DNA of 64,000 bases from a cyanobacterium endosymbiont of Epithemia clementina EcSB (lineage in GTDB: Bacteria > Cyanobacteriota > Cyanobacteriia > Cyanobacteriales > Microcystaceae), in NCBI RefSeq assembly GCF_029919255.1, contig NZ_CP123991.1:985110-1049109 (forward strand). The letters run 5' to 3'. Position 1 is the first letter of the stretch. Each line of letters starts with the position of its first letter. A program made the translations under genes and the position numbers. Positions 4,376 to 60,771 of the stretch are shown here, in pieces. The notes beneath the pieces were generated by a model, which saw only the letters and a program-made list of their open reading frames with translations, had not been told where the DNA came from and did not search any database.

Positions 4376-4574
4376 CTGTCTCTCCTTAAGTTGTTTGTCT
4401 AACTGGACTGATTTGGCTCATATTTATCAGTCTAGATACTTAAAATCTGATAAGGTTGCTTAGCATTTCTCTTGAAGATTAAATACAACGATAATTGGTT
4501 GTTCCTTTTTTTTCTAAGAAAAGAGAGCCTTTCAACAGATTAAGTTAACTTTAAATGTTCTATAAAGGTTTGCT

Positions 4575-5306
4575 ATGGAATGCCAATGGACTGAAAATAA
4601 TTTAACTGATGTTTCTAAACCATCGGAACCCTTTGAGGAAAACCCAATTTGTTTCCAGACGAAGTTTATTGGCTATATGGAAATGTACAGTGATCAGCAA
4701 ACGGTAATTAACTATCTTAATGCTCATCAAGGATGGTTTTGTCGTTGTGCTGAACCGATGAAAACTGAAGCTATGGGAGAAAATGGTTATATCTTATCAG
4801 TAGGACGGTTTAGTTCTTTTGGATATGAAGTGGAGCCAAAAATAGCTGTAGTTTTATTATCGTCTCAAGATGGAATATACCTAATGAATACAATTCCTTT
4901 TCCTGAAGAATCTAATTTAGGTTATGAGATAGATTATAAGGCTTCTATGCAATTAGAAGAAGTTTCTGCCAAACTAGCAGGAGAGGGAATAGTAAAAGCT
5001 TATAAAAAGCAAGGTTTCTCTCAGTTACCAGACGTGATCACTAAAGTTCGATGGCAATTACAGATGGATGTTGCTATTCAATTTCCTAAATTTATTCACA
5101 AGTTACCTTTAAGAGTAATTCAGCAAACTGGTGATAGCCTTTTGAGTCAGATTATTCGCCAAATTTCTCCTCGTTTGACTTATAAAGTTCAAGAAGACTT
5201 TCATACTTATCGTCATCTTCCCGTCCCCCCAAAAAATAGCTGCTACTTAGAGAAAGTTATGGTTTCTAAAGAAAAAGCTACCTTTAAATCCTTATTTAAA
5301 GACTGA
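4575..5306 (+). CDS. DUF1997 family protein
   Basis: A 243-residue protein matching the DUF1997 family of cyanobacteria and plastid-bearing eukaryotes. Family-like stretches are MECQW at the N terminus, LNAHQGWFCRCAEPM (about 48-62), LSVGRFSSFGYEVEPK (about 74-89) and the IDYKASMQLEE strand. There is no signal peptide or membrane segment. The function of the family is not established, to my knowledge. It stands alone between pseudogenes, with its own start ATG preceded by AAAGG. A short hairpin follows. Confidence 0.8.
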   Translation: MECQWTENNLTDVSKPSEPFEENPICFQTKFIGYMEMYSDQQTVINYLNAHQGWFCRCAEPMKTEAMGENGYILSVGRFSSFGYEVEPKIAVVLLSSQDGIYLMNTIPFPEESNLGYEIDYKASMQLEEVSAKLAGEGIVKAYKKQGFSQLPDVITKVRWQLQMDVAIQFPKFIHKLPLRVIQQTGDSLLSQIIRQISPRLTYKVQEDFHTYRHLPVPPKNSCYLEKVMVSKEKATFKSLFKD

Positions 5307-22122: not shown

Positions 22123-23166
22123 TCAATCTTCCAATACTTTTTCTATTTTTACAGAGTTAAACTCAGAAAAATAAATTATTTTCTTGAATCTGTTATAAGT
22201 TTTACTTAGAGATTTGTGATAGGCAGGATCATAGTGAGTTATTAATAAGTCTTGTACTAAATCAAACCATTTTTTTTGATCAATCAATTTAAACCAATCA
22301 TCTATTTTTCCTTTACCATAACGAGATTTTAGATAAGTTAATCTTTTTTTTAAAATGCTTGGATAGGTAATTAAATAAGTATATTTTTTTAGTAAAAAGT
22401 TAACTCTTTCAGAGAGAGGAAGTTGTACTTCAAAACAAGGCGATTCTTTCATTTTATGCCAAAGTTTTGAAGGTAGATAAACTTCACCGATTTTATAACT
22501 TTCTGATTCAACCCATATAGGTTTAGTAAGATCAAAACTTTTAAATTGTTGTAATAAAAGTGAATCGAAATATTTTTGTGAAGGCTGATAGTCTATTTTT
22601 TTTTCCCATTCTTTTCCTAAAAGTGAACCTCGATGATTGGCTATTTTTTCTAAGTCTAAAACTTGATATCCTTGTTTAGAAAGCTGATGTAATAAATCGG
22701 TTTTACCAGTTCCAGTTAATCCGCACAGGATATTGTAATTAAACTTCAACGGTAATATTTCTAACTCTTGTCGTACATGTTGACGATAAGTTTTATAGCC
22801 TCCTTTTAATACCTGAACTTGCCAACCAATTTGGCTTAAAACAATGGCTAAACTATTTGATCGTTGACCTCCTCGCCAACAATAGATTAAAGGAACATAG
22901 TTTTTATCTTTTGTAAAAAAGTATTTTTCTAAAAAATGACTAATATTTTTTGTGACTAATGAAGCCCCTATTTTACGAGCTTTAAATGGAGAAATCTCTT
23001 TGTAAATTGTTCCAACTTTTGCCCTTTCTTGGTTATTAAGAACTGGCAAATTAATGGCTCCAGGAATATGATCTTCCACAAACTCATTTTCAGAACGGAC
23101 ATCGATAATTTCACTGCAATCATTTTTTTCACTAATTTGATCAATAAAATAAGGCGACTTTACCAT
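22123..23166 (-). CDS. mnmH: tRNA 2-selenouridine synthase MnmH (SelU/YbbB)
   Basis: A 347-residue two-domain protein of the usual family length. The N-terminal rhodanese domain carries IIDVRSENEFVEDHIPGAINLP (20-41) and the catalytic Cys96 in IYCWRGGQRS. The C-terminal P-loop domain has GLTGTGKT (149-156) and DLEKIANHRGSLLG. MnmH geranylates 2-thiouridine at the wobble position of tRNA Lys/Glu/Gln and can exchange sulfur for selenium. Whether selenium is used here cannot be told, because no selD is visible in the window. The ggt fossil lies upstream on the same strand. Confidence 0.9.
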   Translation of the reverse strand: MVKSPYFIDQISEKNDCSEIIDVRSENEFVEDHIPGAINLPVLNNQERAKVGTIYKEISPFKARKIGASLVTKNISHFLEKYFFTKDKNYVPLIYCWRGGQRSNSLAIVLSQIGWQVQVLKGGYKTYRQHVRQELEILPLKFNYNILCGLTGTGKTDLLHQLSKQGYQVLDLEKIANHRGSLLGKEWEKKIDYQPSQKYFDSLLLQQFKSFDLTKPIWVESESYKIGEVYLPSKLWHKMKESPCFEVQLPLSERVNFLLKKYTYLITYPSILKKRLTYLKSRYGKGKIDDWFKLIDQKKWFDLVQDLLITHYDPAYHKSLSKTYNRFKKIIYFSEFNSVKIEKVLED

Positions 23167-23274
23167 AATTTAGTTTAATTTACTATTAATCTATAGAAAT
23201 TAAATTCGTTAGAAGTAATTTTTTCTAAAAATTAAAAGTCAATATTTTATTATTAACACACCTAGTATACCGGC

Positions 23275-23830
23275 ATAAAATTTCGTAAAAAACTGACTCT
23301 TTATAAGAATTTTAGTACTATTCATGACAAAACTGCTATCAATTGTATGACCTTTATTTTTTAACAATTAGATTGTAGCATTATTAGGTCCCTTTTTTAA
23401 GTGAATTTTATCGGGGAACAATTGATAATGAAGACGAATTACATTAGTTGCCTCTACAACACTTATTCAATGATCATGAGTGTCATGATCATTGAATAAG
23501 TGTTGGTGGTACGAATAGAACGTTTACCTTGACTTACTTTCAATAACTAAGGTTTCCTGTGCCTTATTATAAGAGCAGACGTTATGGAACTGAGTATCTG
23601 TTTTTGAGGAGTAATACCATTTTTTTCTCCGATCCAGTTTATAAGTATTTGCAACTCTGGATTTAGCTGTTAAATCATTTATTTGATAATTTAATAAAAT
23701 TCCAGTTTCTGAAACAGTTAAAACACTACCATAACTAAAGTTTAAGGTAGTCTAACTATTAGAAACAGCATTTCCATATGGAATAATAAGTCACTTATGT
23801 ACTTTCGCTAAGTTGGAATAAAAGTTAAAG
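23275..23830 (-). pseudogene. ggt: Gamma-glutamyltranspeptidase (ggt) pseudogene, C-terminal part
   Basis: The minus strand keeps the small-subunit region of GGT in order. PYGNAVSNS-TTLNFSYGSVLTVSETGILLN corresponds to GNAVSNTYTLNFSFGSG...GTGILLNN. NDLTAKSRVANTYKL follows, and then, shifted, ITPQKQILSSITSALI. A palindrome (23457-23505) comes next, then VEATNVIRLHYQLFPDKIH with LKKG and, shifted, KNKGHTIDSSFVMNSTK. Stops and frameshifts occur throughout. GGT hydrolyses or transfers the gamma-glutamyl group of glutathione. The large-subunit half, expected at about 23870-24900, is not recognisable. Confidence 0.82.
23457..23505. repeat. 23-bp perfect palindrome inside the ggt fossil
   Basis: Arms 23457-23479 and 23483-23505 are perfectly complementary around a 3-nt loop (GTG). 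It sits between the GGT segments GSxGGxRxxTT and EATNxxRLHxQ, and takes up about the 15-16 codons expected there. It therefore replaced coding sequence at constant length rather than being inserted. Confidence 0.9.
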
Positions 23831-23870
23831 CAAAGTTTTTTAAATAAAAAAACTTTGCTTTAACTTTTAT
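23818..23870. repeat. 24-bp perfect palindrome
   Basis: Arms 23818-23841 and 23847-23870 are perfectly complementary around a 5-nt loop (AAATA). It lies at the upstream edge of the readable ggt fossil, just before the GNAVSN segment on the minus strand, so it too probably arose in former coding DNA. Confidence 0.9.
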
Positions 23871-24609
23871 TTGATTACCCCTAAATTGTTTTAAGGAATT
23901 TACCTATAATTAATTACTATATACGCTCAAATTTTATTCGTTATTTTTTTTGAAACAATGTGTTATTTTTTCTATTAGAGAAAAATCTAAAACCAGGAGA
24001 AAACTCTGGTTCTCAAAGAAGTTCTCTGATTTGATAAGGACTGCAATCGACTTTATTTAAAATTCCTAGACTAGAGAACGACTTATGTAAATTTTTTGGT
24101 AAACACAAAGTAATTATACAAATTTTTATTTAAAAAAATAACTTCTATGGCAGTTTAATAGCAGGGTATAAAACTAATTTGGAATAAATTGTACCGTACT
24201 TTTATAAAGCCATTAAGAACTTTACAATCATCCCTAAAGAAAAAAAAATAATAATTAAACTCATATATATATATGTTCAGATAACATGTCTTTATCAATA
24301 AGAAGAGAAGCTTTTTTTATAGTCAAAAGCGATGTTTATTTATTGCTCAACTAAATAGATTAATTAATATAAATTTTCTATGTTTAGAATTGTTAGTTTG
24401 AAATAAATTAACTGCTAAAATAAATTGAGTTATTGCCGCTATACTAATTACATTAACTTTCTATTTAAATACTTATAAACTGGGTTAAAATACTCAATAT
24501 TTTTACAAATTAATTATATATTATTTGTCAATAAACAAGCAAAATAATAAGACTAATTGATAAAAATATTTTGATTTGTAACTCTGATTGTAGTAACATA
24601 AAAGCAGCA

Positions 24610-26681: not shown

Positions 26682-26735
26682 TTTTCAAAAAAAAGATTAA
26701 AAAATAGAGCTATTTTTTAATCTTTTTTTTGAAAA
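26682..26735. repeat. 26-bp perfect palindrome
   Basis: Arms 26682-26707 and 26710-26735 are perfectly complementary with only two bases between them (AG). It is the longest perfect inverted repeat seen in the window. It is AT-rich (A8 and T8 runs), but 26 matches in a row are far beyond chance. No gene ends nearby. Confidence 0.9.
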
Positions 26736-60728: not shown

Positions 60729-60771
60729 AAAATAGTCTTTAGTTTAATTCATTTAAACTAAAGACTATTTT
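60729..60771 (+). terminator. 19-bp perfect hairpin after crtP
   Basis: Arms 60729-60747 and 60753-60771 are perfectly complementary around a 5-nt loop, starting 15 bp after the crtP stop. The 3' arm ends ACTATTTT, so there is a weak T-tract. It may separate crtP from crtB; it also fits the set of long palindromes. Confidence 0.65.

Follow-up and report, generated by a model that had tools for sequence, protein, structure and literature searches.

We find that a decayed gamma-glutamyltranspeptidase gene (ggt) in EcSB, the cyanobacterial endosymbiont of Epithemia clementina, carries a perfect palindrome with 23-nt arms that lies over homologous sequence at near-constant length, with one arm ancestral, the spacer inverted and the palindrome itself absent from sister genomes. 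The palindrome is very likely a mutation made by template switching, by either an intermolecular or an intramolecular route, and a one-step intermolecular switch is the probable form of this event.

A perfect palindrome at a site of near-constant length in a decayed ggt

The window, the whole 64,000-nt stretch of DNA that was analysed, is G000:C1:985110-1049109 of the single-contig EcSB genome (G000; 3,072,807 bases). The features that matter here, in window coordinates, are the following.

22123..23166, minus strand: open reading frame of an mnmH-like gene, the syntenic anchor adjoining ggt
23242..24234, minus strand: decayed ggt remnant, host of the palindrome; found by tblastn with L006, L009, L012 and other queries, and by PF01019
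23457..23479, minus strand: template (ancestral) arm; the 3' arm on the ggt sense strand, running in-frame into VEATN
23480..23482, no strand assigned: spacer; GTG on the plus strand, CAC on the ggt sense strand, inverted relative to the sisters
23483..23505, minus strand: rewritten arm, the exact reverse complement of the template arm; the 5' arm on the ggt sense strand
23817..23871, no strand assigned: second perfect hairpin in the same ggt pseudogene, with arms of 25 and a spacer of 5

The ggt remnant consists of a C-terminal part (23242-23847) and an N-terminal stretch (23944-24234), and is matched in tblastn by the open ggt of the same-genus genomes G001 (L006, E 2e-28) and G004 (L012, a query that ends at a contig end, E 5e-27), while its PF01019 match (G000:C1:1008735-1008896) is interrupted by a stop. 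The initial annotation had read the palindrome as perfect, with 23-bp arms and inside a ggt pseudogene, and had found GGT-like sequence on both sides of it; the tblastn matches and the stop within PF01019 agree with this, the arms (23457-23479 and 23483-23505, around a 3-nt spacer) are 100% complementary, and YGNAVSNS and LNFSYGS are readable ahead of the palindrome and VEATNVIRLHYQLFPDKIHLKKG behind it. We take the adjoining open frame to be an mnmH-like tRNA 2-selenouridine synthase gene; homologs occur in G001, G002, G003 and, broken, in G005, none was found in G004 or G006, and in G001 the mnmH-like gene and ggt lie on one contig about 1.8 kb apart. Remnants of two other ggt paralogs are found at G000:C1:511055-511462 and G002:C1:423140-423301; EcSB and the E. 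turgida spheroid body thus differ in which copies have decayed.

In a DNA alignment of EcSB with G005, G002, G001, G004, G008, G014 and G020, the sequence facing the palindrome is homologous in every genome except G002. The Rhopalodia gibberula spheroid body (G005, NZ_AP018341.1) has the same ggt remnant, collinear and without the palindrome, and the palindrome is absent from every aligned ortholog, including five open-frame ggt orthologs, one of which is cut by a contig end. The aligned site spans 190 nt in EcSB, 189 nt in G005 and 188 nt in each of G001, G004 and G014, a net change of +1 or +2 nt rather than +49, and from this near-constant length it follows that the palindrome did not insert, as had been proposed from the window alone. 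Neither of the two outcomes that would have spoken against that proposal was seen in the aligned sequences: no functional ggt there carries the same palindrome, and no net insertion of about 49 bp is present. The Epithemia turgida spheroid body (G002; L047, ~4565-4594) is without about 59 nt, starting where the centre of the EcSB palindrome sits, and thus cannot polarise the template arm.

Arrival of the palindrome as a small mobile or dispersed palindromic element is therefore refuted at this site by the alignment, and we regard it as the least probable of the explanations weighed here; the arm, moreover, recurs nowhere else in the 724 kb of EcSB genome examined (next best, 18/23), and a 12-mer is shared by only 4 pairs among 111 hairpins. 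Five replicate first-order simulations of 364 kb of EcSB sequence, with simple sequence taken out, never produced arms of at least 14 nt.

Ancestral arm, inverted spacer and route of the switch

The template arm aligns without gaps to five of six orthologs and with one gap to the sixth, G008. It matches G005 at 18 of 23 positions, with two of the five mismatches being transitions; against the other ungapped orthologs most mismatches are transitions, with, out of 23 positions, 14 matches and 7 transitions in G001, 15 and 5 in G004, 16 and 5 in G014, and 12 and 7 in G020. The rewritten arm requires gaps totalling at least 2 nt against each of the six orthologs in which both arms are present, and its identity to G005 is 61%, vs 83% for the template arm and 78-79% for the flanks. 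The expectation that one arm would keep ancestral sequence and the other would be its complement is thus borne out, although the edges of the rewritten arm still resemble the ancestral arm at that place (15-16 matches, with gaps). On the sense strand, EcSB reads ATGACACTCAT at the spacer vs ATGAGTGTTA in both G005 and G002, i.e., CAC vs GTG; the copied piece therefore appears to include the spacer, an inversion that rests here on 3 nt.

For each of four references, a four-point aligner gives a template-switch gain of 13.0-18.2 log units, and it places the source segment on the template arm with G004 and G014 and overlapping the template arm with G001. When G005 is the reference, the aligner instead favours an upstream segment that is unrelated (15/22 identical), so that divergence blurs this formal template-switch test.

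The initial annotation had proposed that template switching converted an imperfect into a perfect palindrome; the switch itself is upheld, but a pre-existing imperfect palindrome at ggt is not well supported. Ranked by arm complementarity, the ancestral site stands at 53/567 in G005, 22/608 in G008, 342/588 in G001, 172/488 in G004, 236/608 in G014 and 245/608 in G020, i.e., high in G008 and ordinary in G001, G004, G014 and G020. Judged from sequence comparison, these ranks argue weakly that the ggt ancestor may already have been an imperfect palindrome.

During replication of the dead ggt, the growing strand would have come off its own template close to one edge of the site and taken some 30 nt in reverse from the opposite strand, a piece made up of the ancestral arm, the 3-nt spacer and a few further nt, before rejoining its own template in a second switch. 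The outcome would be that the other arm is overwritten with the complement of the ancestral arm and the spacer inverted, with length nearly kept. We infer a single event and an intermolecular switch, in which short matches at both edges would have steered the strand. The inverted spacer is what favours an intermolecular switch over simple self-correction of a folded hairpin. In the intramolecular alternative, the nascent strand folds at an imperfect hairpin and copies one arm from the other, and a second switch, or recombination once the palindrome is complete, subsequently flips the spacer. According to the portion of PMC8604942 available, completed palindromes in yeast are known to flip their spacers; but this route needs two events where one suffices otherwise, and five of the six orthologs, G005 among them, have no notable imperfect palindrome at the ancestral site. 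We consider it unlikely, though far less so than any explanation that dispenses with a switch.

Hairpins and RNase HII across endosymbiont genomes

Perfect hairpins recur in this DNA. Around the second ggt hairpin (23817-23871) the net length is 68 nt below that of G005, and a further long perfect hairpin lies in the same decayed interval at window 26682-26735 (26/2). The mnmH pseudogene of G005 carries a perfect 18/3 hairpin (L046:4608-4646) with a net length change of 0 relative to the open EcSB mnmH, where one half matches the open gene and the other half is the complement of that half.

We counted hairpins with arms of at least 16 nt and spacers of at most 12 nt, after removal of simple sequence, in samples of five endosymbiont genomes and five larger-genome relatives. 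The endosymbionts are EcSB, the two spheroid bodies G005 and G002, G003 (2,483,960 bases), presumably a fourth spheroid-body genome, and G013 (1,443,806 bases), which we take to be UCYN-A; of the relatives named here, G006 (C3) is the Rippkaea orientalis PCC 8801 chromosome, and G001, G004, G012, G015 and G016 are presumed to be free-living. Table 1 of PMC11131595, the part of that paper used here, gives sizes of 3,020,309 for the R. gibberula spheroid body, 2,794,318 for the E. turgida spheroid body and 4,679,413 for the chromosome of free-living PCC 8801. The endosymbiont samples hold 94 hairpins in 724 kb (G000), 74 in 810 kb (G005), 26 in 151 kb (G002), 15 in 150 kb (G003) and 9 in 140 kb (G013), and none was found in 791 kb of the relatives (G001, 251 kb; G006, 280 kb; G012, 80 kb; G015, 80 kb; G016, 100 kb). 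Outside long open frames, the five endosymbionts have 20-35 per 100 kb, and the five relatives none in 124.5 kb, a length in which 25 would be expected at the G005 rate. Palindrome formation of this kind thus seems common in these symbiont genomes and rare in their larger-genome relatives.

Hairpins with arms of at least 14 nt were then compared between EcSB and G005, leaving out those with simple-sequence arms, missing flanks or sites unresolved to 30 nt. Of 84 EcSB hairpins sought in G005, 70 had both flanks and 37 were resolved to within 30 nt, with 8 found in both species and 29 in one; the same steps for G005 hairpins sought in matched stretches of EcSB give 87, 58, 31, 8 and 23. The net length change at lineage-specific hairpins is at most 4 nt in 20/29 cases in EcSB and 14/23 in G005 (34/52 together), two and three, respectively, are insertion-sized, and the remainder are between or shorter. 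At random non-coding positions (1,500 drawn in each genome, 742 and 528 resolved), 576 and 400 lie within 4 nt and 18 and 14 are insertion-sized. Hairpin sites are therefore slightly less often constant in length than control sites, with insertion-sized changes slightly in excess, yet most hairpins call for no insertion. This slight excess (5/52) and the occurrence of the same arm in two of the five insertion-sized hairpins are the points that speak for dispersed elements; a pair of hairpins with closely similar arms (TTCTATAAxTCCAAAAACTTAATT) is seen at L060:6804-6859 and L064:14517-14572. The earlier suggestion that the other palindromes arose in the same way as the one in ggt accordingly holds in part: many needed no insertion, and five are insertion-sized. 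Hairpins in decaying genomes are easily mistaken for regulatory elements or insertions, and most of those that can be resolved here needed no insertion.

Selection for a functional hairpin, e.g., a transcription terminator, would fit the location of 91 of the 94 EcSB hairpins with arms of at least 16 nt outside long open frames, as well as the eight resolved hairpins per species that have a hairpin counterpart at the corresponding position in the other. For the ggt palindrome we nevertheless hold this to be very improbable. The host gene is dead, no T run lies beyond either end of the palindrome (GTGGTACGAATA, TAGAGGCAACTA), and a terminator scan of 23150-24100 passes over it, with both terminator-like matches falling on the 23817-23871 hairpin; more generally, T runs follow 15 of 111 hairpins vs 0.110 of random positions. 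The 23457-23505 hairpin shows no sign of function.

At the constant-length sites, arm complementarity in the other species is 0.629 and 0.645 vs 0.473 and 0.459 in controls (p = 2.8e-7 and 2.6e-6), part of which may reflect old, decayed hairpins. The difference between the better and the worse arm in the 20 and 14 constant-length hairpins is not clearly above control (p = 0.13 for G000, 0.048 for G005), and the better arm is less conserved than control sequence in G000 (0.79 vs 0.87, p = 3e-4), with 0.84 vs 0.87 in G005 (p = 0.44). The low value in G000 is not predicted by a clean rewrite of one arm and counts against the template-switch reading. Most stems are perfect: those with 0, 1 and 2 mismatches number 69, 6 and 3 in G000 and 65, 8 and 2 in G005, under a scoring that favours perfect stems.

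Spacers can be compared in 24 different hairpins, once those shorter than 3 nt, those with gaps and those with a net change above 4 nt are left out and two inverted cases seen from both sides are counted once; eight are inverted (two of them on 2/3 letters), 13 direct and three ambiguous, and 78 of 20,000 control k-mers are classed as inverted. The 13 direct spacers indicate that spacer-keeping events are common, which favours the intramolecular route, as do the spacer flips found in some hairpins shared by EcSB and G005 (CGAATA/TATTCG, TTCAT/ATGAA, TTTT/AAAA), where both arms have also changed together. The TTCAT/ATGAA pair, mutual reverse complements, belongs to a perfect hairpin common to the two species at window 60729-60771. 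Ordinary substitution models can misjudge divergence at sites with such concerted arms and flipped spacers.

Many hairpins in these endosymbiont genomes are probably products of template switching, which would also still be homogenising them. An assembly or amplification artefact could mimic this, since fold-back chimeras are likewise inverted copies and the ggt palindrome is read from an assembly. Fold-back chimeras, however, lengthen the sequence, and length is kept here; the hairpin excess is found in five genomes, and where species share a hairpin, the differences between them are paired across the two arms. We give an artefact very little credence.

Several repair genes were considered as a possible cause. 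Full-length matches to sbcD, sbcC and recJ, free of stops, are present in 7/7 genus members, which rules out SbcCD or RecJ loss. xseA was not found in the four spheroid bodies, in G004 (87% complete) or in G006, and its loss is not a sufficient cause, as G006 has no hairpin of at least 16 nt in 280 kb. RNase HII (PF01351) has no match in the four spheroid bodies and is present in the three other genus members; among 22 relatives, it was not found in G013 or G023 and is present in the remaining 20. Among 155 class members drawn evenly, 154 have it, and the exception is EcSB itself. None of the hairpin-rich genomes gave a match to it, whereas the five relatives that lack hairpins of at least 16 nt in 791 kb all have it. 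RNase HII is missing from all endosymbionts examined in PMC12903740, as far as the text available goes, and loss of yeast RNase H2 raises mutations that extend arm identity in imperfect inverted repeats under high transcription (PMC3820800, available portion).

A 60-kb sample of G023 (4.8 Mb), taken from one contig and drawn to test the RNase HII idea after it had formed, holds two hairpins of at least 16 nt and five of at least 14 nt (simple binomial p = 0.005 and 0.0014, with comparison genomes of another family); on visual inspection, one of them looks like a bidirectional terminator and another like a dispersed repeat, and the absence of RNase HII could be a gap in a draft assembly of ~170 contigs. 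In RNase HII-bearing samples (L107, L100, L101, L103, L119, L027), 6/9 hairpins of at least 14 nt have GTAGGGG...-like arms, apparently a dispersed palindromic repeat. The link of RNase HII to hairpins is suggestive, a presence/absence correlation among genome sequences with small numbers, in which AT content and relaxed selection are confounded. We propose tentatively, as a possibility that is not the likelier one, that loss of RNase HII, an enzyme otherwise almost universal in cyanobacteria, sets up a mutational regime in these N2-fixing endosymbionts: template switching would gradually convert dead DNA, without changing its length, into perfect hairpins that homogenise themselves. If the correlation is true, endosymbiont genome decay would have a mutator that can be identified and put to the test in laboratory bacteria.

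Relation to known template-switch systems

The ggt palindrome offers a resolved natural case of a perfect palindrome that was very likely born by template switching in a bacterial chromosome, along with evidence that such events are not uncommon among these endosymbionts. Quasipalindrome-associated template-switch mutation in bacteria has reportedly been described by Ripley and by Lovett. As in those mutations, one arm in EcSB is rewritten as the complement of the other with length near constant. In the laboratory, such mutations typically correct a few nt within a quasipalindrome that was strong to begin with; in EcSB, unlike these, much of a 23-nt arm was altered, starting from an ancestor that was no more than weakly palindromic.

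Endosymbionts such as Buchnera have a high frequency of inverted repeats according to the accessible text of PMC10434271, which does not mention template switching; the arms counted there are 6 bp or longer, according to a passage in PMC13155455. Among the literature matches listed, none concerns palindrome formation in spheroid bodies or UCYN-A, judging by titles and the starts of abstracts, and the terms palindrom, inverted repeat and hairpin are absent from the main texts of the spheroid-body papers PMC5638926, PMC2246100, PMC11131595, PMC11070190 and PMC12903740. In RNA hairpins, perfect stems can come from a single mutation, and loop inversion marks an interstrand route (PMC8794818, in the part available); those hairpins are functional RNAs, whereas the EcSB hairpin is without sign of function. 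The yeast RNase H2 case (available portion of PMC3820800) resembles EcSB in that arm identity is extended, but was seen there only under high transcription, and the bacterial link is a correlation of presence and absence.

An intermolecular strand switch is named in the title of Rosche 1997, as cited in PMC7202029. The closest likeness is to yeast REG2, where, in the portion of PMC8604942 available, one intermolecular switch accounts for arm conversion together with spacer inversion and takes 5-bp arms to 16-bp arms; the EcSB palindrome likewise combines the two changes. REG2 is the only combined event among the ten spacer inversions listed in that portion, and lies in a yeast coding gene, whereas the EcSB palindrome lies in non-coding endosymbiont DNA that holds many similar hairpins.
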